DNA from: Armatimonadota bacterium
GTDB taxonomy: Bacteria > Armatimonadota > Zipacnadia > Zipacnadales > JABUFB01
Direction of reading: 5' to 3'
Assembly: GCA_013314775.1 (NCBI GenBank)
Contig: JABUFB010000007.1
Location: forward strand, 62,001-126,000
Length of the DNA: 64,000 nucleotides
The notes under the pieces were generated by a model. That model worked only from the letters and a program-made list of their open reading frames with translations, did no database searches and was not told the DNA's origin. Both the position numbers and the translations under genes were made by a program. This document shows, in pieces, positions 17,605 through 42,544 of the stretch. Position 1 is the stretch's first letter; every line of letters starts with the position of its first letter.

Positions 17605-17640
17605 GACGACCGGCAAGCGAACAGACGTTCCTGTCTGAGG

Positions 17641-22731: not shown

Positions 22732-22786
22732 TCTGACCGCCCCTGTTCACCCGTTGCGCTCCGCGCCCACCGTGTCAGGACAGAAG

Positions 22787-23713
22787 ATGATGAATGAGGG
22801 TACCTCGTGCGGGTGCCGGGAGGATCCTCTCGGACGCCTGCCTGAATGGCTTCGCGTGAAGACAGGGAAGGCCCGGCTCAGCCAGGCGACGCGCTCGCTT
22901 GTGGAGGCTCACGGGCTGCACACCGTCTGTCAGAGTGCGCGGTGCCCGAATATCGGCGAATGCTACTGCTCGGGCACTGCAACCTTCCTGATTCTCGGCA
23001 ATGTATGCACCCGAAACTGCCGATTCTGCGCGGTGGCCCACGGTGTGCCCGATCCAGTGGACCCGGACGAACCAGCCCGGCTTGCACAGGCGGCGGCGGA
23101 ATTGGGGCTGCATTATGTGGTGGTCACCTCGGTTACCCGAGACGACCTCCCGGACGGCGGCGCCTCACAGTTCGCCGCTACCGTCAGGGAACTGAAGCGG
23201 CAGATACCGGGCGTGCTGGTGGAAGTGCTCCCCTCGGACATGGGCGGCGACGAGGCCGCGCTGCGGACCGTGCTCGACTCGGGACCCGATGTGTTCAACC
23301 ACAACCTTGAGACCGTGCGACGCCTGCAACCCGTCGTGCGTCCTCAGGCAGGTTACGAGCGGTCACTGGGTGTTCTGAGGCGGGCAGGCGAACTTGGAGC
23401 GCTCACCAAGTCGGGATTGATCGTGGGCCTCGGTGAGACCCGGGATGAGTTGCGCGAGGCCCTGGGCGATCTGGCCTCGTGCGGCGTGCGCATTCTCACC
23501 ATCGGGCAGTATCTGCAGCCCACGCGCGCGCATATGCCGGTTGCCAGGTATGTGGAGCCCGCGGAGTTTGACGAGTTCGCCGACTGGGGCAGGCAGGCCG
23601 GCATCGACCATGTCGTCTCCGGGCCTTTCGTGCGTAGCAGCTACCAGGCTGCCGAAGCGGCTGCGTGTGTCGAACTCCGTAGAGATCATGGGGGAGAGGA
23701 GGAGCGCCGCTGA
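22787..23713 (+). CDS. lipA: Lipoyl synthase
   Basis: A 308-residue radical-SAM enzyme that inserts two sulfurs into octanoyl groups on lipoyl-dependent enzymes. Both iron-sulfur cluster motifs are intact: C-x4-C-x5-C in VCQSARCPNIGEC near residue 48 (auxiliary cluster), and C-x3-C-x2-C in CTRNCRFC near 75 (radical-SAM cluster). The C-terminal RSSY motif, whose Ser ligates the auxiliary cluster, is at VRSSYQA near 284. The ATG at 22787 is preferred over the TTG at 22754 (AGGA upstream). Its stop overlaps the proposed CTG start of the giant TamB-like gene, so the two may be translationally coupled. Confidence 0.95.
   Translation: MMNEGTSCGCREDPLGRLPEWLRVKTGKARLSQATRSLVEAHGLHTVCQSARCPNIGECYCSGTATFLILGNVCTRNCRFCAVAHGVPDPVDPDEPARLAQAAAELGLHYVVVTSVTRDDLPDGGASQFAATVRELKRQIPGVLVEVLPSDMGGDEAALRTVLDSGPDVFNHNLETVRRLQPVVRPQAGYERSLGVLRRAGELGALTKSGLIVGLGETRDELREALGDLASCGVRILTIGQYLQPTRAHMPVARYVEPAEFDEFADWGRQAGIDHVVSGPFVRSSYQAAEAAACVELRRDHGGEEERR
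23697..23712 (+). promoter_or_regulatory. Ribosome binding site and likely CTG start of the TamB-like gene
   Basis: AGGAGG at 23697-23702 is followed after 7 bases by CTG at 23710, which overlaps the lipA stop as CTGA and is in frame with the long ORF. The 31 added codons encode a basic stretch (PDRPRSRWRVG...GRVRG) directly before the hydrophobic anchor, whereas the GTG at 23803 has no ribosome binding site. Confidence 0.6.
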
Positions 23714-23802
23714 CCCCCGGTCCGGACAGGCCCCGCAGCCGGTGGCGAGTCGGGCTGTCCGCAGCGCTCGGACGCGTCCGTGGCGCAGCGCTGGTCACGT
23801 GC

Positions 23803-26800
23803 GTGTCTCTGACCGTCCTGCTGCTGTACCCGCTGACTTTCCTCGCAGTCTTCCTGTCATCCCCAGAAAGCCGGACGCTCCTGCAGGCCGTGATGGCGTC
23901 CGAGACCGCACATCAGGTCAACCGCGAGGTGGCAGTGGGGCCCCTCGAAACGGACCTGCTGAGCCACGTGACGGTGCATGGTGCGGCACTGGCCGCTCGC
24001 GGATCGCTGGCGACCGGTAGCTTCGCCTCCGCAAAGCTTATCCGCCTGATCCTAGCCCCCCAGGAGCTTCTCTTGCGCCCAGGCCGGCCGCTGGCAGCCG
24101 TGCGGGTCCTCGAGACCGATGGCCTGCGCATCGATCTCACCCGAGACGCGCAGGGCAAGCTGGCCCTTCCAGGACATGGCAACCGGGCGCGAGAGTTCGC
24201 GGACACGGGACTGTCCGGCACAAGCCTGCTCTTGCGGCGCACCCATGTGAGTTACACCGACCGGACCCTGACGGGCGAGTTCGGCACACCGCTCCAGGTC
24301 AGCTACGACGGCGGGATCATGGTGGGTGACGTCGAGCGCTTCCTCTCCGCACTCCAGGGGCGGGCCAGGACGCCGGGTGTGCTTTCGATTCGGGGAAAGC
24401 TCGGGGCGCGCGTGGACTCCCAGGTCGTGCATGCGGGCCTGTCCGCCGGCTGGGACAACATTACGCTCAGCAATCTCCTGGTGGTGACTGTGCCGGATGG
24501 TGACCGAGAGCCCCAGGGGAATCTGGACGAGGTCCGGCTCGACCGCGTGGACATCGGGTTGGCTCCCGGGCGCATCTTGCGTGACGGGAAGCCTCCGCTC
24601 CAGGCCCTGACCGGGGTAGACGTCCGTGGGAAACGCGTGCAGCTGTCGCGGTTACCGGACGGACAGCTCAGTCTGCTGAGAAACGTCAGGGAGTGGTTGC
24701 CGCGGGAAAAACAGCCGCCACAGCCGCTGGCCGCCACATTCCCGGTGACATTCCAGATCGAACGCGCCACATACACCGATCTCGCGCTGGCCGGGGCGTC
24801 AAAGCCTCTCGTGGTCGAAGCGCTTGACCTGGCCGGCCGCGTGTCCACGGTGCGCCTCACCCGCGCCCTGACAGGGAAAGCGACTCCTTCAGCCGGCGAG
24901 ATCAAAGGCGAGTTTGCCGCCACTTTCGGCGATCTTTTCGCAGTCTTCGCACTGCAGAGTGACCTGGTTCACACGGCGACAATCACCGGGCTGGATGCGG
25001 TGGAGCGTGGCCGCAGTCTAGCCCGCGCTGATCGCGTACTGCTGGGCTTCGACTTGCCTGCGATGGCCGCCGGCCGGAAGGCGCCGGGACTGGACCTCAT
25101 CGAAGCCGATAGGCTCTTTGCGGACGTCACGCTGGACCGAAACTACCTGCCCACTTTCCTGCCCTCCATCAACATCCCGCCGGCGCCCGAAGGCTCCGAC
25201 GCACCCGAGCCGGCACTCCCGAGAATCCGCCTGACCAGCGCCGAACTCCACGTGGTCCTGGAAGCGGTTCGGTCCCGCGGACAGGCACTCAGAATCCAGG
25301 CACACGGAGCGGACGCGGACCTGTCCATTGCCGCACTGGCGGCGACAGACTGGGGCCGGGCGGGTTCGGCGTCTGGACGCTTCGCTGCGGACTTCGGCGA
25401 TCTGCGCGCTGACACTTCTCTGGACGTGCGGCCTCCTGCTCCGGCCGCACTGGCGGGTCTGAGCGTGCGGCAGCGCGGGCAGGAGATTCTGGGCGCGCGG
25501 AGGGGGGAGGTGCGCCTGGACTGGGCCGCGCTGAACCGCGATCCCGAAGGCGCAGTGAAACTGATCCGCGCGGACGGCCTACTGGCGAGGATCCTTCGGG
25601 ATCGCGATGGGGAACTGGCGCTGGCCAAGGCGCTGGGGATTTCGATGCCCAAGGGCCGGCGGTCGGGTTTTGCCGCGCGCGTCCAGATCACCGGCGGCGA
25701 TGTGACCTACACCGATCTCAGCCGGCCGTCGGGCATCAACAGTGGGCGCATTCGGCATCTGCGGGCGGACGTTGACATGGGCAAGATCGCGCTGGTCTCC
25801 GACGGCAGGCGGGCCCGGGGCATCGGCACAATCAGCGGGGTGCTCTCGGCACGCGGGCCCGGGGTCTCTGCGAGCGCGTCCGTGCGCGCCAATCTGGACC
25901 AATATACGGTGGTTCGAGACTTTCGGGTGACGGAGGCCGGTGGCCGCGTTCCGCTGGACCTGGATTACGCCCGGGTGGACTTCGCGCCGCACCTGTTCCT
26001 GTCCGGGCGGACATTGGACGGCATTCAGCGTGCCGAATTGGTGGGCGGCCGCTTCGATCTACTGCGTGAGGCGACCGGAAGTCTGCGGGAGGCGCGGCTT
26101 ATCTCAGGCAAGCCCCTCGGTGGCGCCGGCACCAGCTTGACCGCTTCGGAACTGCGGTCGTTCCGCCCGACCATCGTCTTGCGAGGTATCTCCGGACGGG
26201 TCACCGATCGGTCCTTTGACGATGGTCCGGTGGTCGCGCGCGTTGAGGGCCTTGGCGGGACAGTGAACCTGCAGCGGGATGACGGCAGCCGCATTACGGG
26301 CAGGTTTGGGCTTTCTCTGGGGCCGCTGTTGGCGAGGGCCGAGTTGAGCACGAATCTGTGGTCGCGAGCGACGGCCACGCGGCTCGAGGCAGCGGAGAAG
26401 GTGGAAGGTGAGCAACCGCGTATTGCCTTCGCGGACCGGGTGCGCCTGGAATACAGCCTGGAACGAGTGCTTGAGGGCGATGCCACCGGAGCCTTGCAGA
26501 AGGTGGCAGTCACGGGCGGGGACCTGAACCTACTCAGGGAACAGGATGGCCGGTTCCGCCTGGCGCGACTGCTCGGGCTTCAGACCACGCCCAGAGAGGA
26601 TAAGCCGTTCCCGGCAGACCTCTCATTGCCCACCGTGTCCTTCACGGGCACTCGGGTGATGTACACCGACCTGTCCGCACCCGCCGGAACTGTTGAGCTG
26701 GAAGGCCTGGATCTTGATGGCCAGGTCAATGCCGGGCGTCTGCTTGCGGCCGTGCGGGGCAAGACAGCCACTGGACTCGGGTCGGTGGAGGGAACGCTAA

Positions 26801-29800
26801 GCCTTCGCAGCCCCGTGCTGATGGCATTCGCGCGCGTGGACGCCAGACTCGACCAGCGGCTAGTGTTTTCGGGGCTGGAAATCTGGGAGCCCGTCGAGGG
26901 AGGAAGACGCGACCTCGTCGTCATCCCCGAGGGCCAAGTCAGCTACACGCCGGCAGGGCTGCTTGGCGAGCGCCCGCTCGAAGGCCTGCGCAGCGTGAAC
27001 CTGAACCGCCCCGACCTGTACATTGTGAGACAGGAGAGCGGCGCACTGGAGCTTGAGGAGAAGCTGCGCGCGGTGTTCGGGATCTCCGGTGCACCGGCAA
27101 GAGACGGCGCGACAAGACGAGTGGAACCGGGCACTGTCACGGCAGCCATTTCCGTGACCGGCGGCAATGTCCGGTACATCGACCACCAGGTTACCCCCCA
27201 GGGCGAGCCGCTGCGAGTGCAACTCACCGACCTTGATGGGCGCATTCCCGCCGGAACGGTCGCGTCGCTCATGGAACGCACCGGGCCGGCGAGGTCCGGT
27301 CTGCTCCGCGCGGGCTTCCAGGCAAGCTGGCCCGGGGCAACCGCGCGAGGCAGCTTTTCCACCGATGTGCGGTCCTTCGCACAGTTGCGTGACATCGACT
27401 TGCGCGCAGCTGAGGGCGAGGAACTGGGCGCGCAGGCAGACATGATCCTGGCCGAATATGACCTGGGCACGCTCCTTGCCCAGGGCGATGGGTGGCCAGG
27501 GGGCATTCAGACGCTGCGCGCCGACGGGCTGCGGGCCCACATCATCCGGGATGAACGGGGACGCCTGGATATTGCGGGTCTCTTCGAGCCCTTCCTGCCG
27601 GAACAGAGCAGTGTGAGCAAGGCCGAGGCGCGTGCATTGCTTGAGCATCTCGCGGCCCGGGTGCAGCTGGCCGATGCCGACCTGCGCTACACCGACTATG
27701 CAGTCAACACAGAGGGCCCTGTCCGGGGGCAGATTCTCGCCCAAACGGCGGACCTGCGCCTGGAACGACTGGTGGCCGCCACTCGTGGAGAAGCAGTTGC
27801 GGAAGCGGGGAGTTTCGGCGGGTCGGTTTCTGCCGAGGTCCCCGGGGGGCAGTTCCGGGCAATTCTCTCCAGCACCGATATCGCCACGACCATGAACGCA
27901 TCGAAGGTCTGGGTGGCGGCGGCGGATGACAGGGAACCCTCATTTCAGGCGGACTGGGCCACCGCCGGCTACCAGCTGGGAGGCTTCTTCGCCGAAGACA
28001 GGCCGCCGCAGGCCGCGCTGGCGTCTTTGGAGCTCGGTGCGCCTTCTGTTTGGATCGAGCGCATGGATGACGGCCGCATCGACCTGATCGCTTCACTCAC
28101 GCGCGGATTCGGGGGTACTGGTGAGCCATCCGGCAAGCCCCGACCGGCTGCGGATCTGCGCGCCGAACTGGAGAGTCTCGATGCCAGGGTGCGGATCAAT
28201 GACGCCAGAGCGGCCTTCGTCGATCATTTCGTGGAGGATGGCCCGATTGAACTGGAGGTGGACCGCTTCGATGCCCGGCTTGACACCGGCCACCTGTGGG
28301 CCAGTTTCCGCCAGGAGTACACCGGGGATATCGGCTGGGTACGCCTGAGTGCGAGGGCGTCAAACCCCGCTGAGCGCGTGGCTCTGGACGCCGATTGGCG
28401 CCTGGACGGCGATTTGAGCATCCGCGACGCATCCATCACTCGCGTCGGGATGCCCCTCCCGGTTCTGACGGCTCACGCGGTTCGGGTGCGTTACGAGCCC
28501 TTCGCGGCTTTCGGCAGGGGAGGCTCTATTCCGGCTTCGATCCTGGATATCAACATTGACCGTGCCTTCGCGCAGGGCCGGCGTCTCGAGACCGGGCGGT
28601 TCGAGCTGCCGCGACTGGTCCAGGCATACTTGCCCGAGGGTGAAAGTCCTGGTCTTGGGGCGCCTTGGACTGAAGAAGGGTTTTTCTGGGGCTTCACGGG
28701 CCGAGTTCGTATGGGAAGTCTCTCGGCGTTGTACGAAGATCTCAGCCTGGGAGAAGGCCCCGCCAGCGGAACGGTGAGCAGCGTCTCGGCTGACCTGGAC
28801 TTCGCGCGAATCGCGGCCTTGCGCCGTGGTGAACGGGTGGAATCCCCGGGGACCATCAAAGGCTGCGTGCTCCTTGGGCGCGAGCAAAGTTGCCTGCGCG
28901 CGACTGTCACCGCGGACCTGGGCGGCCAGGTGTTCGTGGATGATCTCGGACTGGTCAGCCAGTCAGGTCGGCGCAGAATACTGACGGCGAAACGCCTTTC
29001 GGCCCAGTTCGATCCCGTCGAGGTCTTCTCCGGTGATGTGCCACTGCGCGGAGTGACCCGGATTGCCGCACAGAACGCGGACGCCGACATCCTCATGGAT
29101 GCTTCCGGGCGTTGGGAGCTTGCCCACCTGCTTGACGACTTCGTGAAGTCTGAGCCCGACGGTGGGGCTGCCAAGGGACTTGCACCCGAGGACCTGCCGG
29201 CGACTGTTGTGGTTCTTGATTCATCGGCAAGATACCTGGACCTGACCGAAGGACCGAGGCGCCCGGACCTGAGGCGGGCTGAAGCACGCAACATCAACGG
29301 CAGTGTGAATCTGGCGAAACTGTGGCAGTCCAGGAAGACCGGCAAGGCGCAGGATGCCGGGTCGATCAAGGCGGAACTCGAGGCGGAGTGGCGCGACACG
29401 CGCATCGCCGCCGATCTGGACACCGACCTGAATTCCGTCGCCCACTTGCGCGGTGTGTCGGTGACGGGCTTCGTTGATGATATGCCCAGGGAGCTGGTCA
29501 CATTGCGCCGCGGCCAGATCCAGGGCAGACTGGGGGAGATCATCGCGGGAGGGGACTGGCGGGAGAACATCGACAGGGCTTCGCTGGAAGGGCTCGTGGC
29601 CGACGTGCGCCGCGCGGCCGACGGCTCCTATGACATCGCGCGCGTGCTGGGCCTGGACGTGCCTGAAGACCCGCTGGAAGCGGCTGAAGGCGAGCTTGCC
29701 CGACTCAGCGGCGTTCTGGCGCTGACCGATTCCACCGTGCGCTACGCAGATGCCTCATTGGAGCGCCCGCTCTCCCTCGAGTTGTCGGGTATCCAGGGCG

Positions 29801-32800
29801 AGATCAACCTGGCCGCGGCAGGACGGCTGATCGACGGTGTGCCTGCGAATGATGCGGGGCGGATTACCGCTGGAATCGACGGGACCTGGGGCGAGTACTC
29901 CCTGCGAGCGAAACTCTCCACCGATATTCTGGGCGAGACGGAGATCGCCGACCTCGCGCTGTCCGCGCCGGGGGAGATCGCTCCCGTGTCGGCCGACCGC
30001 CTCTGGGCACGCTACGATCTGAACGCCATGCTGAACGCGGAGAAACCACTTCGGCACGTGCGTGAATTGGCCGCCGAGAGACTGGTGGCACGTGGGGTCC
30101 GCAGAGAAGACGGCTCCTGGGACCTGCTGGACGAAATCGTGGATGCCACCGGGCAGCAAAGGGACACGACGGAACGGCCGGACCCGGGCTCCCTCGTGGC
30201 GCGTGTGCGACTCGCCGATTCTTCTGTGAAGGTCGTGGACTACACCGTGCAGGGCACTGAGCCCCTGGTGGTGGCCGCCCATGACCTGGATGCGGACATT
30301 GATCTGGGGGCCGTCCATGCCATGCGCGCAGACGGCGAGACGCGTTCGGCGGGCACGGTGAGCGCCAGTGTCACGGCAAGCGCAAGTGGAATCTCCGCTT
30401 CCGGGACGCTTCTGGCTGACCTGGCAGGTGTGCTTCAGGCCAGCGATCTGAGGGTCAGTGCGCCAGAGCCCAGCGGCGGTGATCTGCTGGAAATACCCCG
30501 CATGGGGCTGCGGCTCGAAACTGGCCCGATACTTGCGGGCGAACCCCCTCTGCAGCATGTCTCGTACGTTGAACTTGATGAGCCCACCGGGCGGCTGATC
30601 CGCGAGGCCGACGGGCGGCTGCGTCTAGCCCGCATTGTCGACGATGGACTTTGGGAAGATGGGACATCCCCGGCCGCCGACTACGAGAGCGGGAAGTTCC
30701 AGGGGCGTCTCGCTACCCAAAATCCCAGGCTGCAGTATGTTGACCTCGCACTGCTCGAAGATGGTCCGCTGGTGGTGGCCCTGTCCGGTCCGGGCCTGGA
30801 CCTCGACCTGTCCGACGCCGACAAACCCCAGGGCCTGGTGAACGTCGACTTGCATGCCCGCAGTCGTACGGAGCAGGCTTCCCTGAGGATCGGCGGCGAG
30901 GTGGACAAGCAGGTGATGGTGCGCGACCTGGTGGTCTCGGAGCCCGGACGGGGCGAAGTCTTTCGGATGGACCGCTTCGATGTCTACGGCAACGTGGCTT
31001 CTGCTCTCGGCGATGCACCCGACCCGCTCCTGGCGATCCAACGTGTCGAGATCGGCGGCGTGCGAGGGGAGTTCCGCCGGGATTCGTCGGGTCGCATCAC
31101 CTCACCGGGGTTTATCCCCCGGCGGCTGGCGACGACCGGCGACCAGGCGCCACGGCTTCAGGGGAGGTTCGACGCATGGGTCTCTCTACAGGACGTGGCG
31201 ATAGGGCTGGTTGTTGAGGAACTGCTGGGGCCCAATGCGCCGCCGGTACGCGTGGAACTGGGTCAGGTGATGGGCAGCGTCCGCGCACAGGGCGAACTTC
31301 GTGACGATGGGGGAGCCGTTTCTCCTCAGGGCTCCGTCCAGGCGCATGTACGCATGATCTCGGACGGAACTGCAGTCACCGCGGATGTGGAAACCGACAT
31401 ATTGGAGCGCGCCTGGCTGCGAAATCTGGCGAGCGTGGATGATGCGGGTCACCAGTACGCCCGGGTCGCTGAGGTTGCCGCGCAGTACAACTTCCACGAC
31501 CTCGTGGCGGGGAAACCCCTGTACCGGGCGCTGGCGGGTCTCGAAGTGAAAGACGCCCGGGTTGAGGTGGGCACCGGGGAGGACGGAATACTGCGTCTGG
31601 CCGGGCTGCCCGTGAGTGATCTGCAGGTCCGCTCCGTCGGAGAGGCAACAACCGCGGGCACCGTGGAAGTGCACGGGCAGGCATACACGGATGCCGGCGG
31701 TCTCGTCCGGGGAGAGCTGCGAGCCGATGGCGGGCTGGTGGAGAGTGCGCGCGGGGAATTCGTGTTCGATCCTTCGGACTTGTGGCTTGATGCGGAGTTC
31801 GAGGCCGGGCGCGTGGACATTCCGCTCCTGGGCGAACTCACACTGGCGCGCGAAGATGGCCGGGCGCTTGAGGGGACCGCAAACGCGAAGGGCTTTGCAT
31901 ACGGGCAGCTGGGTGAAGACGGGTCCGGTTTCGCGTGGTCTCTTGCAGGTGAACTGCGAGACGCGAAGGTGGTTGTCGCCTCGCTTGGAGAAGCGCCGGT
32001 TGAAATCGATACGCCCTTCGAGGCCACCTCCGAGGGCATCCGGTTTGAGCGGGCCGATGTGCGGTGGGCAGGGGTTAGCGGAACTGTCCAGGGATCGGTG
32101 TTCGACCTGGAAGATCCTTTGCTGGCTCTGGATATACAGGCGCAGGCGTCGCGCGGTGAGGATTTGCTGGCACTCCTGCCCGAAGCGGAACGAGAGCGGC
32201 TGCAGGGGCTGTCGCTCACCGACCGCGCGGTGGTGATTGCGACTGTCACCGGGCCGGCGGGGGACGCGGTGGCTGATGTTCGGTTCTCGTCGCCCGGAGC
32301 CGCCATAGCTGAGCTGCAGGGCCTGGGCTACCTGAGGCTCGAGGGAATCGACTTGACCGCATCCGTGGTTGGCTGGAAGAGCCTCAGCGTCCGGGCGGTG
32401 GCGTCAGTGGACCGCAGCAGCCTGTCGGTGGCGCCCGGCGTGGACGACCCAGTGGCGGCGGCGCTGGAGACCGTGGAGATCGGTCCGGCGGCGGCGAGAG
32501 TCTTGTCGGCGTCCAGCGACCTGGGGGACGCCATTGTGCGCATCCCGTGGGCCAGTATCCAGGGAGTGCCTGTCACGGACCTCGCGGCGTCGGCCACTCT
32601 GACCGAAGGCGGTCTCGCGATTACGGGGCTCCGGGGTAAGGTTCTCGGTGGCGACCTGTCCGGCGCCGGACAGGTGGACATCGCTGAATCCGGTGGACTG
32701 ACAGCTTCCGGCCGAGTGTCCCTCACGGATGCGGAGCTCGCGGGGCTGCAGTCCGCTCGTGGCTGGCCGGAGAACATGCAGCTCACCGGCAGTCTCGGGG

Positions 32801-35800
32801 TGCTCGCGGGTATGCAGACCTCCAAGAAGGGGCTGAGATACGCTGCTGACGTAACACTTGAAAAGCCGGGCGTGAACGGAAGCGAGTTCGATTCCGGACG
32901 TGTCCTGGTTTCGGGCGGCAGTTCCGGGACACGGATCGATCTGGCGTCCCTGGACCGCGGCGATACCCACATCTGGGTGCAGGGGGATGTGCGCGGGCGG
33001 GATTCCGGCGGTCCCGGCGGCATGCAGGTGGACCTGCGGGTGGCTGGAGTTGGTGTGGACCCGGGCATGCTCCCGCTGGACCCGGGAGACCGCCGGCTTG
33101 GGGGCTCCATGTACTTCACCGGGGAGGCAACCGGCGATCTGCGCGATCCCGACCTGGACCTGTGGATGCAGATCTTCGATCCGCAAGTGGATGCAATCCA
33201 CCTTGATGCTGCGGCAGCCCACGTCGTCCGGACCGGGTCAGAAGCCCGCGTTGACCATTTGCTCGCTTCGTCCGGGGCTGCCGTCCTGGGGGTCCGGGAC
33301 CTTCGGCTCAACCAGGTGGCCCTGTACGACACCGACGGCCGGCTGAAGCCCTCGGCCTACGTGCAGGGAGGGCTGGTGGGCCTGTATGCCTCTGCGTCCG
33401 ACATCGCCGAGGTCACCGACAGCGAAATCAGCACCGGCGGCTGGGTGCACTTGAATGGGACGATCAGCGGCCCGGCGCGCCGGCCAACTCTGAACGCACT
33501 CGCGGGAGCGGACCACCTGCAATTGGGCGAGTTCTTTGTGGATGAAGTTCGGCTTCCCATCACCGTGACCGGAGATGAAGTGATCGTTGCCGAGGGTAGC
33601 GCGCGCGCTCATGGCGGGCATCTGTCAGTGCTGGCGCGCGTCTCCGATCTGTACGGCAAGAGCCGGTACGAGATGGTGGCCTCGCTGGACCGCCTTGCCC
33701 TGGAGGACTTGCCCCCGATTCACAGGCTGGGGCTGGATGTTTCCGGGATAGCCTCGGTTCCGCAATTCACGGCGTGGGGAAGCCGCGATGATCCCGTTAC
33801 CGGCGGCGCCACTTTCCGCGCGTCTAATGTGAAAGTCAGGACTGAACGCCTCGAGCCTGTCACCGGTTGGGTAGGGTTTGGCAACGGGCTCATCCAAATG
33901 AGTGCGCACAAGATCCAGAGCGTCCCCGAAGCCGAGACCAGAGGTGGCCAGGCTGAGGAGCCCGTTACCGTGAGCGCTCAGGGCACCCTGGAAATGGCAA
34001 CCCGCATGTTGCGTGCCGAGGTGCACGTGGGCTCGCCCGAGATTGTCGACCCGGCGGGGGACGTCCCCGAGAGGATCATCCGCGCTCTTCCGGACATTGG
34101 CAGCCTGCTGCAACTGGCCGCCCCACTGGTCGCTGTGGGTGAGGCCGCGCGCGAGACCCCGGTTCCGCCTGCTTTCGGGGCATCATCGGAGCCGGAGACC
34201 CCGGTTTCGACCTCACAGTCCCTGGCTCAGCTTGGGCTGCGCACCTCCGGCAAGGTAGCCGGCCAACTGCTTCTCGTGGGGCCGCTTGATGAGCTCAACT
34301 GTCGCACGCGGTTCTCGGTGTGGGACGCGGAACTGGACCAGAAGCCCCTTCCGCGCCGGGTGCGAGGGCAGTTTGGCGCTGATCTCAGCAAGCGCAGGAT
34401 CTATGACATCGAGGCGGACGCCATCGATGGCCGCCAGTTCTGCACGGTCACAGGCTCTGTCACACTGCCCGACCCCAGCTTCGATGAATGGGCGGAGGCG
34501 GACGATCCGGCCTCCCTGGACCTCACCATTGAAGGTGCGGACATTGATCTGCCGATGTGGCGCGACTGGGTGCCCACTGACCTGCCCTTCGGGGGATCAG
34601 CCACGTTCCTGCTTGTTGCCAACGGCAAGACGCGTTCGCCTACGGTCAGGGGCAGCCTGGATATCATGAAGCCGGCTCTCGCGGGGGCACAGTTCGACCT
34701 TCTGAAGTTGCCGCTCATCGACGTGCGCGAGGGAGCTGTTGTGGTGCGTCGGGCGAGGCTGATCCGGTCTGATGAGATCCCGGCCGAGCGCAAGGGTGAT
34801 GCACCGACCCGGGCCGTGCGGGAACTGGCCATGGAGGGCACACTGCCCTGGACCTGGGGCAAACCATGGATCCCCAGGGACCGGGACATGGACCTCAAGG
34901 CGGAGCTCGGCGACATCGATCTGGGATTCTTTGTGGGGCTGATGGATGAGATCGCGCGCGAGCGGGCGCCGCTGGACCGCAAGTCCGAGCCGACCCTGTG
35001 GTCCCAACTGGACACCAGTGGGACGGTGAGCGCGAGCCTGAATGTAACCGGTCCGTGGGGCGCCCCTGAGCTTGCGGGCCGCTTGAGGGTGAAGGACGGA
35101 TCAGTGCGATCGGCGGGGTGGGAGCGACCGGTGGACGACCTGCAACTCGGCGTCAGGTTCGTGCGGGAGGCCGGGCGGAATCTGGGGATCATCGAGGAAG
35201 CTCGGGGGCGCTGGGGTGCGGTGCGTTGGACTGCAGACAATGCCTGGGCGTACCTGGACCATCTGGGCATAGCGAATCTCACCCGGAACGAGTACCACAT
35301 GGACCTGACCATGACTTCGGACAGGCGCACCACGGTAGGGGGCTTCTCTGTGGCGAAAGTGGGCGGGGGGCTTTCGCTGCATACTGAGCTCCCGCTCGAT
35401 GGATTGCAGGCGGAGGGGGACAGGATCCACCGCCTGACGGCGAACGACCTCACGGCCTGGCTCCCCGACGGGAGCATCCGGCTCTCGGGATCTGCCGGAC
35501 TGACCACCTTTTCGCCCACTGAGCTTGCCGGCAACAGCTATGACCTGAGGGTCACCTTCGACCACGCCCACCTGCAGCGGGGCAAGCAGTTTCGGGGCGT
35601 CGTAGATGGCGCGGTGAGTGTCGTGGGTGCCCCGGATGGGCAGGGGGAGCCGGAAACCCAGGTCCGGGTCGCCGGTGAACTGATGGTGCATCAGGCCGAG
35701 GTAGGCCTGGTAATCCCCAAAGCGCCCACGACCGGCAGGGAGATACTGAGCCTTTCCCGGCGGTATCCCACCCCGGTTTTCGACGTCAAAGTGAACGCGG

Positions 35801-36585
35801 GGGAAGCGGTGCGGATCCGGGGGCTGGGCATTACTATCCCGGTGGAGCCCTCTACCATCGCACATGTCACAGGCAGCCTGCACGAGCCGAAAGTGGTGGG
35901 GAGCATCTCGTCACCATCGGGCGGCATTCAGGTTCCCGGTGGTGGGATTCAGGTCAATACTGCCAACATCGAATACGAATTCGGCCCCAAGCCCGGCTAT
36001 CTGAACCGGGACCGGCTGCCCCTGGAGCTTCGCGGACAGGTCCGCGCCGAGGCCAGGCAGGTGATCACCAATGCCGAGGTCCCGGGCTGGGGCGCCGGCG
36101 ATGTTGAGATCATCATCTTGGTGCACGGGAACCTTCCGGATGACATACGCGTCGATACCCGGTCAGAGCCGCCGCTAAGCGAGCAGCAGATTCTGGCGCT
36201 GGTTGGTTCCGAACAGCTTGCGGGGCTGGAAGTTGGCGGTCGTGGTCGCGGCTTCGACGAGGTCCTCACCGAGCAGGCACTCAATCTCCTCGCGGCCGGG
36301 TTCAGAGCCCGGGTTTTCGACCCCATCGAGTCCGAATTGCGGCGCATACTGGGTCTATCCGAGTTCAACGTGACCTTCGGCTTCGACCAGGCCGTTGATA
36401 TTCGGCTCGGCAAGTACCTGCTGAAGGATCTACTGGTCTCTTATGAACGCAGTTTCGGCGCAACGGGCATCGATGAGTACGACCTGAGCGTGTCCTACCG
36501 CTTGAAAAACCGCCTGCGGGTAGCGTACACTACGGACGAGCGTGGTGATCACCGCATCAAGCTCTCGTATGATATGGACTTCTGA
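23803..36585 (+). CDS. tamB: Giant TamB/AsmA-like outer-membrane biogenesis protein
   Basis: A 4260-residue protein (4291 if translation starts at the CTG at 23710), over three times the length of E. coli TamB. An N-terminal hydrophobic anchor (about 1-20) is followed by roughly 15 degenerate repeats of about 165-175 residues up to about residue 2620. Each begins with a strand like V-x-Y-T-D-L, has a charged L-x-D-L-D region, and ends R-x-D-G-x-L-x-L-A followed by LGL; YTD-type motifs lie near residues 149, 323, 634, 952, 1123, 1294, 1470, 1643, 1810, 1980, 2143 and 2311. Residues about 2620-4000 are TamB-like beta repeats, and the last 190 hold the conserved TamB C-terminus (LPDDIRVDTRSEPPLSEQQI, LLVSYERSFG). 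TamB proteins bridge the periplasm and are linked to phospholipid transport and barrel assembly. bamA follows. Confidence 0.88.
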   Translation: MSLTVLLLYPLTFLAVFLSSPESRTLLQAVMASETAHQVNREVAVGPLETDLLSHVTVHGAALAARGSLATGSFASAKLIRLILAPQELLLRPGRPLAAVRVLETDGLRIDLTRDAQGKLALPGHGNRAREFADTGLSGTSLLLRRTHVSYTDRTLTGEFGTPLQVSYDGGIMVGDVERFLSALQGRARTPGVLSIRGKLGARVDSQVVHAGLSAGWDNITLSNLLVVTVPDGDREPQGNLDEVRLDRVDIGLAPGRILRDGKPPLQALTGVDVRGKRVQLSRLPDGQLSLLRNVREWLPREKQPPQPLAATFPVTFQIERATYTDLALAGASKPLVVEALDLAGRVSTVRLTRALTGKATPSAGEIKGEFAATFGDLFAVFALQSDLVHTATITGLDAVERGRSLARADRVLLGFDLPAMAAGRKAPGLDLIEADRLFADVTLDRNYLPTFLPSINIPPAPEGSDAPEPALPRIRLTSAELHVVLEAVRSRGQALRIQAHGADADLSIAALAATDWGRAGSASGRFAADFGDLRADTSLDVRPPAPAALAGLSVRQRGQEILGARRGEVRLDWAALNRDPEGAVKLIRADGLLARILRDRDGELALAKALGISMPKGRRSGFAARVQITGGDVTYTDLSRPSGINSGRIRHLRADVDMGKIALVSDGRRARGIGTISGVLSARGPGVSASASVRANLDQYTVVRDFRVTEAGGRVPLDLDYARVDFAPHLFLSGRTLDGIQRAELVGGRFDLLREATGSLREARLISGKPLGGAGTSLTASELRSFRPTIVLRGISGRVTDRSFDDGPVVARVEGLGGTVNLQRDDGSRITGRFGLSLGPLLARAELSTNLWSRATATRLEAAEKVEGEQPRIAFADRVRLEYSLERVLEGDATGALQKVAVTGGDLNLLREQDGRFRLARLLGLQTTPREDKPFPADLSLPTVSFTGTRVMYTDLSAPAGTVELEGLDLDGQVNAGRLLAAVRGKTATGLGSVEGTLSLRSPVLMAFARVDARLDQRLVFSGLEIWEPVEGGRRDLVVIPEGQVSYTPAGLLGERPLEGLRSVNLNRPDLYIVRQESGALELEEKLRAVFGISGAPARDGATRRVEPGTVTAAISVTGGNVRYIDHQVTPQGEPLRVQLTDLDGRIPAGTVASLMERTGPARSGLLRAGFQASWPGATARGSFSTDVRSFAQLRDIDLRAAEGEELGAQADMILAEYDLGTLLAQGDGWPGGIQTLRADGLRAHIIRDERGRLDIAGLFEPFLPEQSSVSKAEARALLEHLAARVQLADADLRYTDYAVNTEGPVRGQILAQTADLRLERLVAATRGEAVAEAGSFGGSVSAEVPGGQFRAILSSTDIATTMNASKVWVAAADDREPSFQADWATAGYQLGGFFAEDRPPQAALASLELGAPSVWIERMDDGRIDLIASLTRGFGGTGEPSGKPRPAADLRAELESLDARVRINDARAAFVDHFVEDGPIELEVDRFDARLDTGHLWASFRQEYTGDIGWVRLSARASNPAERVALDADWRLDGDLSIRDASITRVGMPLPVLTAHAVRVRYEPFAAFGRGGSIPASILDINIDRAFAQGRRLETGRFELPRLVQAYLPEGESPGLGAPWTEEGFFWGFTGRVRMGSLSALYEDLSLGEGPASGTVSSVSADLDFARIAALRRGERVESPGTIKGCVLLGREQSCLRATVTADLGGQVFVDDLGLVSQSGRRRILTAKRLSAQFDPVEVFSGDVPLRGVTRIAAQNADADILMDASGRWELAHLLDDFVKSEPDGGAAKGLAPEDLPATVVVLDSSARYLDLTEGPRRPDLRRAEARNINGSVNLAKLWQSRKTGKAQDAGSIKAELEAEWRDTRIAADLDTDLNSVAHLRGVSVTGFVDDMPRELVTLRRGQIQGRLGEIIAGGDWRENIDRASLEGLVADVRRAADGSYDIARVLGLDVPEDPLEAAEGELARLSGVLALTDSTVRYADASLERPLSLELSGIQGEINLAAAGRLIDGVPANDAGRITAGIDGTWGEYSLRAKLSTDILGETEIADLALSAPGEIAPVSADRLWARYDLNAMLNAEKPLRHVRELAAERLVARGVRREDGSWDLLDEIVDATGQQRDTTERPDPGSLVARVRLADSSVKVVDYTVQGTEPLVVAAHDLDADIDLGAVHAMRADGETRSAGTVSASVTASASGISASGTLLADLAGVLQASDLRVSAPEPSGGDLLEIPRMGLRLETGPILAGEPPLQHVSYVELDEPTGRLIREADGRLRLARIVDDGLWEDGTSPAADYESGKFQGRLATQNPRLQYVDLALLEDGPLVVALSGPGLDLDLSDADKPQGLVNVDLHARSRTEQASLRIGGEVDKQVMVRDLVVSEPGRGEVFRMDRFDVYGNVASALGDAPDPLLAIQRVEIGGVRGEFRRDSSGRITSPGFIPRRLATTGDQAPRLQGRFDAWVSLQDVAIGLVVEELLGPNAPPVRVELGQVMGSVRAQGELRDDGGAVSPQGSVQAHVRMISDGTAVTADVETDILERAWLRNLASVDDAGHQYARVAEVAAQYNFHDLVAGKPLYRALAGLEVKDARVEVGTGEDGILRLAGLPVSDLQVRSVGEATTAGTVEVHGQAYTDAGGLVRGELRADGGLVESARGEFVFDPSDLWLDAEFEAGRVDIPLLGELTLAREDGRALEGTANAKGFAYGQLGEDGSGFAWSLAGELRDAKVVVASLGEAPVEIDTPFEATSEGIRFERADVRWAGVSGTVQGSVFDLEDPLLALDIQAQASRGEDLLALLPEAERERLQGLSLTDRAVVIATVTGPAGDAVADVRFSSPGAAIAELQGLGYLRLEGIDLTASVVGWKSLSVRAVASVDRSSLSVAPGVDDPVAAALETVEIGPAAARVLSASSDLGDAIVRIPWASIQGVPVTDLAASATLTEGGLAITGLRGKVLGGDLSGAGQVDIAESGGLTASGRVSLTDAELAGLQSARGWPENMQLTGSLGVLAGMQTSKKGLRYAADVTLEKPGVNGSEFDSGRVLVSGGSSGTRIDLASLDRGDTHIWVQGDVRGRDSGGPGGMQVDLRVAGVGVDPGMLPLDPGDRRLGGSMYFTGEATGDLRDPDLDLWMQIFDPQVDAIHLDAAAAHVVRTGSEARVDHLLASSGAAVLGVRDLRLNQVALYDTDGRLKPSAYVQGGLVGLYASASDIAEVTDSEISTGGWVHLNGTISGPARRPTLNALAGADHLQLGEFFVDEVRLPITVTGDEVIVAEGSARAHGGHLSVLARVSDLYGKSRYEMVASLDRLALEDLPPIHRLGLDVSGIASVPQFTAWGSRDDPVTGGATFRASNVKVRTERLEPVTGWVGFGNGLIQMSAHKIQSVPEAETRGGQAEEPVTVSAQGTLEMATRMLRAEVHVGSPEIVDPAGDVPERIIRALPDIGSLLQLAAPLVAVGEAARETPVPPAFGASSEPETPVSTSQSLAQLGLRTSGKVAGQLLLVGPLDELNCRTRFSVWDAELDQKPLPRRVRGQFGADLSKRRIYDIEADAIDGRQFCTVTGSVTLPDPSFDEWAEADDPASLDLTIEGADIDLPMWRDWVPTDLPFGGSATFLLVANGKTRSPTVRGSLDIMKPALAGAQFDLLKLPLIDVREGAVVVRRARLIRSDEIPAERKGDAPTRAVRELAMEGTLPWTWGKPWIPRDRDMDLKAELGDIDLGFFVGLMDEIARERAPLDRKSEPTLWSQLDTSGTVSASLNVTGPWGAPELAGRLRVKDGSVRSAGWERPVDDLQLGVRFVREAGRNLGIIEEARGRWGAVRWTADNAWAYLDHLGIANLTRNEYHMDLTMTSDRRTTVGGFSVAKVGGGLSLHTELPLDGLQAEGDRIHRLTANDLTAWLPDGSIRLSGSAGLTTFSPTELAGNSYDLRVTFDHAHLQRGKQFRGVVDGAVSVVGAPDGQGEPETQVRVAGELMVHQAEVGLVIPKAPTTGREILSLSRRYPTPVFDVKVNAGEAVRIRGLGITIPVEPSTIAHVTGSLHEPKVVGSISSPSGGIQVPGGGIQVNTANIEYEFGPKPGYLNRDRLPLELRGQVRAEARQVITNAEVPGWGAGDVEIIILVHGNLPDDIRVDTRSEPPLSEQQILALVGSEQLAGLEVGGRGRGFDEVLTEQALNLLAAGFRARVFDPIESELRRILGLSEFNVTFGFDQAVDIRLGKYLLKDLLVSYERSFGATGIDEYDLSVSYRLKNRLRVAYTTDERGDHRIKLSYDMDF

Positions 36586-36732
36586 CAGCATGCGCGACCG
36601 GGCCGGATGTGCCCGGCGCACCCCTGAATGGGGCCCGAGTCCGCGCAACGGACCGCACCCGGCGTTGTCCAAGTCAGGTGGCGTCGGCGGCACACGATGC
36701 CGGGGGAGCCGATCAGGGCGCGGGGTCCCAAC

Positions 36733-37368
36733 ATGAAGCGCTGCCTGCTTTCTCCCGGTCCCGGCGGCGGTCCAGGGATGATCGGACGTCCAGGACTGAG
36801 TGGCACCGTGGAACCGACCACTGACGCCGACGATTTCGCCAGAATCGTCGAACAAAACTACCAGCGCGTGTACAGCGTGATCTTCCGCATGATCGAAGAT
36901 CGCGAAGAGGCGGAGGATCTGACCCAGGATACCTTCGTCAACGCCTATCGCGCTTTCGACAGCTTCCGCCACGAGAGTCAGGTATACACGTGGCTGTACC
37001 GTATTGCCGTCAACCTTACGAAGAACCGGCTGGACCGCCGGCGCAGGCGCCGTAACTCCGAAGGGCCGTCGCTGGACGAGCCGGTGGCCATGGAAGACGA
37101 TGAGCTGTCGCGGCAAGTGGAAGACTTTCGGCGGGCCCCGGACAGGTCTGCGGAGAACGCCGAACTTGAACGCATCCTGTCGGAAGAGGTCATACGCCTG
37201 CGGCCCGAATACAAGGAAGTCGTGATACTGCGGGACTACGAAGGGCTGTCATACGAACAGATAGCCCGCGTTGTTGGCTGCAGCGTTCAGGCCGTCAAGT
37301 CCAGGCTATTTCGGGCGCGCAGTGTACTGCGTCGCGCTCTTGCGGAGTACCTCGAGATCGAGCCGTAA
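36733..37368 (+). CDS. ECF-type RNA polymerase sigma factor
   Basis: A sigma factor of the extracytoplasmic-function type. Region 2 starts at DDFARIVEQNYQRVYSVIF and includes EEAEDLTQDTFVNAYRAF and the FRHESQVYTWLYRIAVN helix for -10 recognition; region 4 is LRPEYKEVVILRDYEGLSYE followed by QIARVVGCSVQAVKSRLFRA for -35 recognition. Region 3 is absent, as usual. The start is uncertain: ATGs at 36628, 36697, 36733 and 36778 are all in frame and the sequence before the conserved region is low-complexity (Gly/Pro-rich). No anti-sigma gene is adjacent. Its position between the TamB-like gene and bamA suggests a role in envelope homeostasis; this is inference. Confidence 0.88.
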   Translation: MKRCLLSPGPGGGPGMIGRPGLSGTVEPTTDADDFARIVEQNYQRVYSVIFRMIEDREEAEDLTQDTFVNAYRAFDSFRHESQVYTWLYRIAVNLTKNRLDRRRRRRNSEGPSLDEPVAMEDDELSRQVEDFRRAPDRSAENAELERILSEEVIRLRPEYKEVVILRDYEGLSYEQIARVVGCSVQAVKSRLFRARSVLRRALAEYLEIEP

Positions 37369-37417: not shown

Positions 37418-39310
37418 ATGCGGATTAGAGCAACCGGGCAGACGCTCGCCACGCTGCTGGCCGCCACGGTCCTGCTGAGTCTCGCCATCACGGCGAGTGC
37501 CCAGGGATTGCTGGTGTCCGAGATCAAGGTCGAAGGGGCCGGCTACGTCTCGGCCAGCGTCATCGAGAACGAGATCAAGGGCATCCTCAGCGTAGGGGCC
37601 GAGCTGACCCCGGAGAAGATCACCGCGGCGCGCGAGGCGATCGAGCGCCTCGGATATTACGACAAGGTCGAAGTCTCCCAGCGCGTGCTGGCTGAGGGCC
37701 GAGTCCAGGTCATCATCAGCGTTGTCGAAAAGCAGCGCATCGAGAAGATCCTCTTCGTCGGCAACACCGTTCTGAGCGACGACGACCTTCTGGGGGTCAT
37801 CAACTCCAAGCCCGGCGTGCTCGTGGACAGGCGCCTTGCAGAACGCGACGCAGTGCGGATTCAGTCCGCATACACCAAGGCCGGGTATTTCGCCCAGGTT
37901 GCTCACGCGAACGTGGACAATTTCGGCGTGCTGACTTTCGTTATTGAGGAAGCCAGGATCGAGGCCATCAAGATCACGGGCCTGAAGCGCACCAAGGAGT
38001 GGGTCGTGCGGCGGCAGATCGAGATCAAGCCCGGCGAACTCTACCAAGAGCGCAAGCTCATCAGCACCGTCCATCGGATCAATGAGCTGCAGCTTTTCAA
38101 GAACGTGGAGTTCGAGGCTCACCTGGGCGAACTCGACCCAATGAATATCACGGTGGAGTTCAAGGTGGAGGAGACCCGGACCGGGCAGGCCGGACTCGCC
38201 TTGGCCTACAGCAGCCTGGACGACCTGGTTCTGATGGTGTCGGTGCAAGAGAACAATTTCCGGGGCCAGGCCGAGCGTGCCTCGGTCAGCCTGGAGATGT
38301 TCGGCCGCACCAGCTACGACCTCAGCTACGAAGAGCCTTTCTGGGATGAGAAGGGCACCGCTTTCGAGATCAACCTGTTTGACACCGAACGCAAACGCCA
38401 GTTCTTCGGCGGCGCCGCCGTCTCAACCGGCAGCGACGAGTTCGAGGAACGCCGCACGGGTGGCAGCATCCGCATTTCGCGGGCCCTGGATGAGGCCAAT
38501 CGCAGGCGAGCCACCGTTCGGTTCCGCAGCGAAGAGGTGTCCAGTTCATTCTTCCAGGGCGTGAAGTACGTCGGGACGCAGGTGCCCGGAGGAGTGTCCC
38601 CTGCGCAGACCATCGACGACCTGCAGGATGGCGATCTGCGGGATATCGTCGATAATCCGAATCTCGAGCCCGACATCCCCGGTCCCGGCGACATCCTCGG
38701 GCCTATCAAGGTGGCTGCTCCCCTGCATCCCGGCGGTCGTCTGGCCAGCATAACGCTGGGTTACAGCTCGGACCTGCGCGACTCGCGCTTGAAGACTACG
38801 ATGGGCAGCTTCTGGTCGGGCAACGCCGAATTCGCCGGAAGTTTCCTGGGCGGCGAAGTGAGCTTCACCAAGTTGACAGGAGAGTACCGCTACTACCGAC
38901 CGGTGGGGAAGAAAAAGGACGTTATCGCGGCCCGAATCATGGCCGGAGCCAGCTTCGGCGATCTGCCCCTGTTCGAGTCGTTCACTGCGGGTGGCTCCAA
39001 TACGCTGCGCGGTTATGAGGAAGACCGGTATCGCGGTGAGAATCTGCTTCTGGGAACGGTGGAGTACCGGCGCGCACTCAATGAGAGCCTGACTCTTGTG
39101 GGCTTTGTGGATGTCGGCGACGCATACGGCGGCAATTTCCCCACCGTGGTTCCCGGCTTCAGCGTTCCCGCGGAGGACCAGAGCTTCGAACCCCATGTGG
39201 GTATCGGGGTGGGAGCGCGCATCGTGACGCCCGTGGGTCCTTTCCGGATCGACATCGGCTGGGGAGAAGACGGGAGCCAGGCGCACGTCAACTTCGGGCA
39301 CACTTTCTGA
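37418..39310 (+). CDS. bamA: Outer-membrane assembly protein BamA (three POTRA domains)
   Basis: A 630-residue Omp85 protein that folds outer-membrane beta-barrels. After a signal peptide (about 1-28) there are three POTRA domains (about 30-105, 106-180, 181-255; for example RIEKILFVGNTVLSDDDLL starts the second), fewer than the five of E. coli. The C-terminal barrel includes GGSNTLRGYEEDRYRG, the RGF/Y loop that seals the barrel, and ends AHVNFGHTF with the terminal Phe of the outer-membrane beta-signal. The ATG at 37418 has GGGGAG seven bases upstream; the frame is open from 37271 but that stretch overlaps the sigma gene. A Gly/Asp/Pro-rich loop (about 395-430) breaks the barrel and is unusual. 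Confidence 0.92.
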   Translation: MRIRATGQTLATLLAATVLLSLAITASAQGLLVSEIKVEGAGYVSASVIENEIKGILSVGAELTPEKITAAREAIERLGYYDKVEVSQRVLAEGRVQVIISVVEKQRIEKILFVGNTVLSDDDLLGVINSKPGVLVDRRLAERDAVRIQSAYTKAGYFAQVAHANVDNFGVLTFVIEEARIEAIKITGLKRTKEWVVRRQIEIKPGELYQERKLISTVHRINELQLFKNVEFEAHLGELDPMNITVEFKVEETRTGQAGLALAYSSLDDLVLMVSVQENNFRGQAERASVSLEMFGRTSYDLSYEEPFWDEKGTAFEINLFDTERKRQFFGGAAVSTGSDEFEERRTGGSIRISRALDEANRRRATVRFRSEEVSSSFFQGVKYVGTQVPGGVSPAQTIDDLQDGDLRDIVDNPNLEPDIPGPGDILGPIKVAAPLHPGGRLASITLGYSSDLRDSRLKTTMGSFWSGNAEFAGSFLGGEVSFTKLTGEYRYYRPVGKKKDVIAARIMAGASFGDLPLFESFTAGGSNTLRGYEEDRYRGENLLLGTVEYRRALNESLTLVGFVDVGDAYGGNFPTVVPGFSVPAEDQSFEPHVGIGVGARIVTPVGPFRIDIGWGEDGSQAHVNFGHTF

Positions 39311-39517: not shown

Positions 39518-40270
39518 ATGGCTGTGAGATTGCCGGTCTTGGGACTTTTCCTGACATGCCTGTTGGCGGCTACCTCGTTTGTAGTTGCGGACACCCAGAG
39601 CGACACGCCGGCGGCGCCGGCCCAACAGCCTGCAATGAGCGGCCTGAAGATCGCTGTGGTTGACGTGAAGCGCATCAATGACGAGTTCGTCCGGCCTCAG
39701 GCGCGCAACGAAGAGACGGCAAACTGGGCACGGCGCCAGCAGCAGTACATCGACGAACTGCAAAACCGCTACATTTACCTCAGCGAAGAGGCCTTCAACG
39801 AGATCATCCAGATTCTCGGAATGTCGCGGCCACTTCCCGCAGAAGCCGCTAAGCGCCAGCGCGAGCTGCAGGACGTGAATGATAAGACCGAGGCGCGTTT
39901 CCTGGACCTGCAGCGAAAAGTCGACCGGACTGCGGAAGAGCAGGAGGAGTTCAACCGTCTGCAGGCCGGCGTTGATGCGCGCAACAAGCAGGTTGAGCAG
40001 ATCGTCCAAAACCTGCAGAACCAGCTGAACCAGATGCAGATGGACACCATTGACGCCGCCATGGATCGTGCGCAGACCGTGATCGTTGAAGTTGCCACGG
40101 CCGGCGGCTACAGCCTTGTTTTCGCAAAGGCCGCAGTGATTCACGGCGGCGACGACATTACGGACCAAGTGTTGGAAAAGCTTGCCGAGTTGCCGACTGG
40201 GTCCGCGAAAGTTGGTGCGCCGGGTCCGCCTGCAGCAGCACCGGCTCCGGCGCCTGCAGCGACGCCCTGA
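39518..40270 (+). CDS. skp: OmpH/Skp-family periplasmic chaperone
   Basis: A 250-residue secreted protein (signal peptide about 1-24). The strand LKIAVVDVKRINDEF near residue 43 is the OmpH opening, and residues about 60-190 form long charged helices (coiled coil: AAKRQRELQDVNDKTEARFL, EEFNRLQAGVDARNKQVEQI), as in the Skp tentacles. The segment GGYSLVFAKAAVIHGGDDIT near 200 is the conserved C-terminal strand. A Pro/Ala-rich tail follows. Skp family members hold unfolded outer-membrane proteins in the periplasm and hand them to BamA. AAGGAA lies upstream of the ATG. lpxD follows one gene later, the same skp-lpxD neighbourhood seen in proteobacteria. Confidence 0.9.
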   Translation: MAVRLPVLGLFLTCLLAATSFVVADTQSDTPAAPAQQPAMSGLKIAVVDVKRINDEFVRPQARNEETANWARRQQQYIDELQNRYIYLSEEAFNEIIQILGMSRPLPAEAAKRQRELQDVNDKTEARFLDLQRKVDRTAEEQEEFNRLQAGVDARNKQVEQIVQNLQNQLNQMQMDTIDAAMDRAQTVIVEVATAGGYSLVFAKAAVIHGGDDITDQVLEKLAELPTGSAKVGAPGPPAAAPAPAPAATP

Positions 40271-41491: not shown

Positions 41492-42544
41492 GTGCAGAAG
41501 GTTGCTATTCCTCTGGCGCGCATCGCCGCCCATGTGGAAGGCACGGTACTCGGAGATGCCGGAACCCTGATCAGCGGTGCGGGCACACTCGAAGAGGCCG
41601 AAGCGGGACACATTGTCTTCGTCGAGCGTCCGGAAATGCTCACGGCGGGCGAGCAGAGCAACGCCTCGGCCCTCATCGTTGCACCGGGGCTGTCCAGCTC
41701 GGCGAAGCCGATTGTGGTCACGGAAGATCCACGCCTCGCCTTCAGCAAGGTTCTAGAGCTCTTCGCGCCCAAGCCCAATGCCCAGCCGGGGGTGCATCCC
41801 ACTGCGGTCCTGGGACGCAATGTCACCTTGGGCGAGCGCGTCTCAATTGGCGCGCACACGGTGATTGGAGACAACGTGATCATCGGGGATGACACCATTA
41901 TTCATCCCCTGGTCTATATTGGGCATGACGCTACTATCGGAAAGTCGACGGAGATTGCCCCGCAGGTCTACATCGGCGACCGCGTGACTGTTGGGGATCG
42001 CACCACGATCCTGGCGGGTGCAGTCATCGGGTGCGATGGTTTCGGCTTCCTCCAGACCGGCCAGGGTCATCGGAAGATCCCGCAGATCGGGACTGTGGCC
42101 ATCGGCAATGACGTCGAGATTGGCGCTTGCAGCACGATTGACCGCGCCACTGTTTCCGTCACCCGCATCGGTGATGGAACGAAGATCGACGACCAGGTGC
42201 ACATTGCCCACAACTGCAATATCGGGCGAAACTGCTTGCTTTGCGGACAGGTGGGAATCGCCGGTAGCACCCGGGTCGGCGACAATGTGGTTATGGGCGG
42301 GCAGGTTGGGGTCAGCGACCATGTGACGATCGGCGACAACGTTGTGGTGGCGGGTAAGTCTGGGGTGTTCGGTGACATCGACAAGCCGGGTGTCTACTCC
42401 GGCTACCCCGCCCGGCCGCACAAGAAACAACTGCGCAATATCGCGATGTCCCATCGTCTGCCGGATCTGGTGGAACAGATCAAGAAGATGGAAGCGCGCA
42501 TCGCGGAACTGGAACAGAAGCTAGCTGAGCGCGAGGGACAATAG
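41492..42544 (+). CDS. lpxD: UDP-3-O-acylglucosamine N-acyltransferase LpxD
   Basis: A 350-residue enzyme that adds the second hydroxyacyl chain in lipid A synthesis. It has a short N-terminal uridine-binding domain (1-100), a left-handed beta-helix built of hexapeptide repeats (NVTLGERVSIGAHTVIGDNV and onward to about 320), and a C-terminal helix (LVEQIKKMEARIAELEQKL). The catalytic His lies in HIAHNCNIG near residue 235, as in E. coli LpxD. The start is GTG with GGGAGGA upstream. Its presence shows the organism makes lipid A, hence an LPS outer membrane. It is the last gene before a hairpin terminator. Confidence 0.95.
   Translation: MQKVAIPLARIAAHVEGTVLGDAGTLISGAGTLEEAEAGHIVFVERPEMLTAGEQSNASALIVAPGLSSSAKPIVVTEDPRLAFSKVLELFAPKPNAQPGVHPTAVLGRNVTLGERVSIGAHTVIGDNVIIGDDTIIHPLVYIGHDATIGKSTEIAPQVYIGDRVTVGDRTTILAGAVIGCDGFGFLQTGQGHRKIPQIGTVAIGNDVEIGACSTIDRATVSVTRIGDGTKIDDQVHIAHNCNIGRNCLLCGQVGIAGSTRVGDNVVMGGQVGVSDHVTIGDNVVVAGKSGVFGDIDKPGVYSGYPARPHKKQLRNIAMSHRLPDLVEQIKKMEARIAELEQKLAEREGQ

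Follow-up and report, generated by a model that had tools for sequence, protein, structure and literature searches.

TamB of Escherichia coli has about 1260 aa, whereas a TamB-like frame in the stretch of Armatimonadota DNA analyzed here (the window; 64,000 nucleotides, positions 62,001 to 126,000 of contig JABUFB010000007.1) encodes 4260 aa, and the question raised by this locus is what such a protein is made of and what it might span. The preliminary description of the window had the correct 4260-aa frame, which runs from a GTG start at 23803 to the stop at 36585, but the earlier start that it gave, at 23710, is an in-frame upstream extension. The gene, its parts and its neighbors are arranged as follows.

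22754..23713, plus strand: radical SAM gene, upstream neighbor of tamB, conserved across the order
23803..36585, plus strand: giant tamB, 4260 aa, GTG start, single open frame with its stop at 36585
23803..23877, plus strand: N-terminal membrane anchor of TamB, aa ~1-25, a hydrophobic stretch read directly
23914..24174, plus strand: N-terminal half unit, aa 38-124, unit HMM positions 61-144, found in long and short TamBs
31735..36582, plus strand: body, aa 2645-4260, homologous to short TamBs of the same order (BLASTP against genome G049)
35467..36582, plus strand: Pfam TamB domain PF04357, aa 3889-4260, E 1.6e-25
36628..37368, plus strand: ECF sigma factor, located between tamB and bamA in every order member examined
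37418..39310, plus strand: bamA (Omp85 with POTRA), ATG 37418 chosen by its signal-peptide-like start, probable outer-membrane partner
39518..40270, plus strand: OmpH/Skp
41492..42544, plus strand: lpxD, downstream of skp and one gene without an assigned name

The same gene order (radical SAM, tamB, ECF sigma factor, bamA, skp, the unnamed gene, lpxD) is found order-wide within the stretches covered, bearing out the envelope context that had been read from bamA, skp and lpxD, and the short TamBs of the order are encoded in the same operon. Two frames beside lpxD have no Pfam match; that at 40291-41466 is conserved across the order, and that at 42619-43824 is clear in genome G202 and weak in G024. 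On the minus strand, the sole Pfam match of a 1233-aa frame at 14303-18004 is short and is to FlaA, of the flagellar filament outer layer, and a frame at 43834-46158 joins a protein kinase domain to a PQQ-type beta-propeller.

The C-terminal match to PF04357 scores 90.7 bits against a curated cut-off of 22.4, and the giant protein is alone in matching this domain in its genome, a draft of 37 contigs. DUF748 (PF05359), a family related to TamB and AsmA (PMC4494059), matches five stretches with 106.4 bits against a Pfam cut-off of 50. When the short TamB of G049 is compared, the alignment covers aa 28-166 and aa 2645-4260, the latter pairing with G049 aa 233-1756 at E 1.5e-149 (BLASTP), and the ~2450 aa between them are absent in G049. 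Short TamBs contain the N-terminal half unit only, with several also having the beginning of one unit. The giant protein shares with E. coli TamB a C-terminal TamB domain and the context of an Omp85 partner, and probably also an N-terminal membrane helix and a beta groove, as read from its hydrophobic N-terminus and from the beta structure predicted for three units, and E. coli TamB differs in having no 15-unit array. With PF04357 above its cut-off, a body orthologous to that of the short TamBs and a gene order common to both, the membership in the TamB family that had been claimed is upheld, and it is close to certain that the giant protein is a TamB with a repeat array. The array is composed as follows, with each unit located by the unit profile.

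24226..31611, plus strand: array of 15 tandem units, probably of repeating beta-groove type, aa 142-2603, forming a ~2450-aa insertion that short TamBs lack
24226..24732, plus strand: unit 1, aa 142-310
24742..25215, plus strand: unit 2, aa 314-471
25219..25656, plus strand: unit 3, aa 473-618
25675..26133, plus strand: unit 4, aa 625-777
26167..26625, plus strand: unit 5, aa 789-941
26629..27132, plus strand: unit 6, aa 943-1110
27142..27648, plus strand: unit 7, aa 1114-1282, modeled with AlphaFold
27655..28176, plus strand: unit 8, aa 1285-1458, modeled with AlphaFold
28183..28695, plus strand: unit 9, aa 1461-1631, modeled with AlphaFold
28699..29184, plus strand: unit 10, aa 1633-1794
29200..29703, plus strand: unit 11, aa 1800-1967
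29710..30192, plus strand: unit 12, aa 1970-2130
30199..30693, plus strand: unit 13, aa 2133-2297
30703..31155, plus strand: unit 14, aa 2301-2451
31180..31611, plus strand: unit 15, aa 2460-2603, weaker

Self-alignment of aa 141-2640 by autocorrelation (BLOSUM62) has peaks at lags 162, 318/341, 496 and 625-688, with a score of 4332 at lag 162, where 60 shuffles reach 356 at most, and the same analysis found no ~165-aa period in the C-terminal body. A unit profile built from thirteen hand-cut units of the giant TamB detects 15 full units and the N-terminal half unit, including units outside the training set as well as units in other genomes, and had no matches in 20 shuffles of the sequence. 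The preliminary description was therefore right in its count of about 15 units of 155-175 aa with a YxD motif, and the period of about 170 residues that it proposed to check is seen near 162 residues, far above the shuffled background. Units are ~165 aa long and 13-30% identical to each other (mean 21%), and because they are so degenerate, plain BLASTP self-comparison of the giant TamB found no repeats.

The array is retained in relatives. Genome G202, from another genus of the same family (f1), encodes a 4365-aa orthologue with 39.8% identity and 15 units, and 14 of these units have the same-numbered unit of the giant TamB as their best match, unit 8 being a near tie. In G009, tamB is split across two contigs by a break inside one unit (profile positions 92 and 96), such that its 2882-aa TamB is a truncation at a contig end; its array would be thirteen units if the contigs abut, and fifteen if exactly two are missing. 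Partial tamB pieces from G201, of the same genus as the giant, give dN/dS values of 0.24 for aa 997-2010 and 0.15 for aa 1934-3354, and windows across the part of the array that was sampled range from 0.13 to 0.38, indicating that the sequence is under purifying selection.

Across 201 sampled Armatimonadota genomes, complete TamB frames are mostly about 1450-2000 aa, after correction of read-through frames (G137 TamB, 1786 not 2697 aa; G045 TamB, 2222 not 2499 aa; likewise the G120 MCE protein, 479 not 737 aa). Long TamBs are found in families f1 (4260-4365 aa), f24 (2807-2910 aa) and f14 (2222-2366 aa), and the comparison of frame lengths in relatives that had been suggested confines the ~2450-aa insert to f1. 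TamBs of f24 have a ~140-aa period of their own, unlike the giant TamB unit (L066, L067 and L160, from G015, G029 and G043), and therefore TamB lengthening seems to have occurred more than once. The MCE proteins of f24 are also long, at ~650-660 aa from the membrane helix (L130, L132, L133), and the lengthening of both proteins in this family is apparently independent.

What the units might build is suggested by structure prediction. An AlphaFold model of units 7-9, for which the alignment was made of other units of the giant TamB, reached a pLDDT of 74.8 and a pTM of 0.72, with ~7-8 strands per unit. Foldseek gave LPD-3 as the best solved match to this three-unit model (E 2.2e-8, probability 1.00), followed by fragments of Vps13 (E 1.4e-3) and Atg2 (probability 0.95), with unrelated low-probability beta-barrels interspersed in the list; TM-scores normalized by query length reached only 0.14-0.16 and the rmsd was high, and therefore the match identifies the fold class and not the detailed shape. 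As modeled, the three units would form a groove of the repeating-beta-groove class. These best fold matches, LPD-3/BLTP1, VPS13 and ATG2, are eukaryotic and not bacterial, VPS13 units have five strands, and sequence searches against solved structures returned nothing credible, with no detectable similarity to the solved chains. In bridge-like lipid transfer proteins the number of repeating groove units sets the length, and the relation of unit number to gap width in the superfamily is yet to be studied (PMC7613979). In the profile of 42 units, strand neighbors are opposite in hydrophobicity sign in 88% of cases compared with 54% when shuffled (0 of 20,000), a test picked after viewing the profile and after a strict two-residue alternation test had come out non-significant (p 0.19 and 0.10); the strict test was replaced because a phase shift within a strand escapes it. 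This alternation fits, as expected, a groove that is greasy on one face. The bridge-like beta groove put forward in the preliminary description is thus favored by units 7-9, which match lipid bridges, but does not extend with equal strength to the junction with the body, where a single-sequence model of aa 2133-2900 has a pLDDT of 34.7 only and does not give continuity of the groove.

The single MCE/MlaD protein of the genome, a second candidate bridge, is also long in family f1. Each of 16 genomes examined has exactly one MCE/MlaD match, and in 15 of them the protein joins its MCE domain to a membrane helix, a long helical stretch and, at the C-terminus, a part resembling a barrel; the exception is G038, outside the order. 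From membrane helix to barrel motif there are 724, 717 and 663 residues in f1, and 357-437 elsewhere in the order (sister families with a readable motif), the helical linker of f1 having gained ~300 aa. The f1 insert runs for 285 aa without proline, its hydrophobicity has a period of 3.58 and it contains an 18-aa repeat; it is therefore read as a long helix extended by repeats. MlaD of Veillonella parvula has the same layout, ending in a C-terminal beta-barrel (PMC10665443), but has 419 aa and is modeled at 23.5 nm, whereas the f1 MCE protein has ~857 aa with the 18-aa helical repeat. In the MCE frame of G090 (L137) a cysteine-rich, ferredoxin-like C-terminus replaces the barrel, representing a fusion or a frame artefact, and this protein was left out of the comparison as it has no barrel.

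TamB and MCE lengths co-vary across the phylum, with a Spearman rho of 0.70 for open-frame lengths in 123 Armatimonadota genomes and 0.76 for 34 family medians. For 29 genomes trimmed to homologous starts, some of them picked because their lengths were unusual, Pearson r reaches 0.95. On a tree from two short alignments, phylogenetic contrasts give r of 0.94, and 0.75 without f1; without f1 the contrasts have the same sign in only 15 of 26, and therefore the signal is carried by large changes. Longer TamBs do tend to occur in larger genomes (rho 0.60), but genome size does not explain the correlation, with a partial r of 0.94 once it is taken into account. By textbook values, each strand adds 0.48 nm and a helix rises by 0.1485 nm per residue; eight (or seven) strands per ~170 aa give 0.0226 (0.0198) nm per TamB residue, and on this geometry 6.6-7.5 TamB residues per MCE residue are expected. 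The observed ratio (1/slope) is 7.1-7.5, or 6.5-7.6 by contrasts. A limited test of the open-access literature found no earlier description of this length correlation, and what appears to be new is that two lipid bridges have been lengthened in a matched way. The size of TamB alone has a precedent in Deinococcus: the TamB homologue DR_146T of D. radiodurans has 4002 aa and is described as carrying two TamB motifs and as having an S-layer phenotype (PMC5382914), at odds with the earlier claim that the giant is beyond any known TamB or YhdP.

We propose that TamB is long because it has an unusually deep envelope to span, and that the MCE bridge was lengthened by about the matching amount. Under this proposal, the N-terminal helix would anchor TamB in the inner membrane, the C-terminal domain would presumably meet the BamA encoded next door, and phospholipids would most likely pass along the hydrophobic groove between the membranes, as in other AsmA-family bridges; the groove might possibly also assist outer-membrane proteins. 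Lipid conduction, BamA contact and envelope depth are what we infer. The array would have arisen before the f1 genera diverged, when the ~165-aa groove unit was amplified directly after the N-terminal half unit, and the count of 15 has since been kept in two genera. E. coli TamB has been modeled as a supercoil of 17.8 nm that can be stretched to 24.6 nm (PMC11014939), and scaling it to 4260 aa gives 60-83 nm; scaling from D. radiodurans, with a periplasm of ~90 nm (PMC8688812), gives ~96 nm. For the MCE bridge, scaling from the Veillonella model with the barrel taken to start near residue 250 yields no more than ~89 nm. All of these values presume straight, fully extended proteins, and on them both proteins would act as rulers of inter-membrane distance, at ~60-95 nm for TamB and up to ~89 nm for MCE. 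That an ordinary TamB was stretched, together with MCE, into a ruler matched to a deep envelope of roughly 60-95 nm is, on balance and by a little, the probable explanation.

The deep envelope was already suggested in the preliminary description, and although the co-elongated MCE bridge speaks for it, other envelope proteins of f1 do not follow. TolC domains, SLH/OmpM-like proteins and BamA show no lengthening, the correlation of BamA with TamB length being low in hand-trimmed lengths that are indicative only (rho 0.16, n=12), and membrane-fusion hairpins have almost the same length in f1 and in short-TamB genomes (MacA-type, 317 aa in f1 and 318 aa in the others; RND-type, 255 aa and 255-256 aa). 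TonB, as a further ruler, was found in one of 15 order members searched. With hairpins and TolC of ordinary length, efflux pumps would fall short of a uniform ~85-nm gap; either the pumps are located where the membranes come closer, or the length of both lipid bridges has another cause. Because these proteins do not fit, we place the deep-envelope step by itself close to even. That the hairpins do not follow the lengthening is a separate puzzle. Where both ends are readable (L182, L183, L185-L201), hairpins measure 317-318 and 255-256 aa, with G009 apart at 323.

The same ordinary lengths, together with the stretchable supercoil of E. coli TamB, would suit an array that runs obliquely, coils, folds back or crosses a thick wall only at special sites, with both bridges having gained slack and the extra length not reflecting depth. 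We consider this rather unlikely, if a serious contender, as a beta groove and a helical tube lengthen near the ratio expected for a common axis, and D. radiodurans couples its 4002-aa TamB to a ~90-nm periplasm. D. radiodurans differs in belonging to another phylum, and Deinococci are listed among groups without Mla homologues (PMC10665443). It also provides an argument for a giant TamB specialized for assembly of a surface layer or particular outer-membrane proteins, where length would serve substrate handling and not lipid flow, since full-length SlpA disappears from the envelope when DR_146T is lost (PMC5382914), and placement of tamB in an operon with bamA and skp points the same way. However, the short TamBs share this operon, leaving length unaccounted for by gene context, an MCE bridge of the lipid type becomes longer together with TamB, and the units resemble lipid bridges, making this improbable as the explanation of length, although it is compatible with a lipid bridge across a deep envelope. 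Neutral inflation of the repeat, with the MCE correlation a product of shared ancestry or large genomes, could appeal to the tendency of long TamBs toward larger genomes, but is very hard to reconcile with 15 units in the same order in two genera, the low dN/dS over the sampled array, a correlation that survives contrasts and genome size, and the unrelated f24 with its own long TamB and MCE. Draft assembly in 37 contigs and metagenome-assembled relatives notwithstanding, an assembly or annotation artefact is ruled out by full or partial orthologues in independent genomes (G202, G009, G201), in keeping with the conserved unit order and purifying selection, and its probability is negligible.

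Returning to the matched-ruler explanation, two structurally unrelated bridges lengthen jointly across the phylum at nearly the ratio expected for strand and helix, which bears on why bridges have the unit numbers that they do. We suggest, tentatively and at somewhat less than even confidence, that TamB and MCE lengths are a ruler readable from genomes, that periplasm depth varies severalfold in the Armatimonadota, and that family f1 may have a Deinococcus-like envelope of ~60-95 nm in which both bridges were lengthened in register by tandem-repeat amplification. If confirmed, envelope depth could be estimated from the genomes of uncultured bacteria, and family f1 would be a natural test of bridge models.
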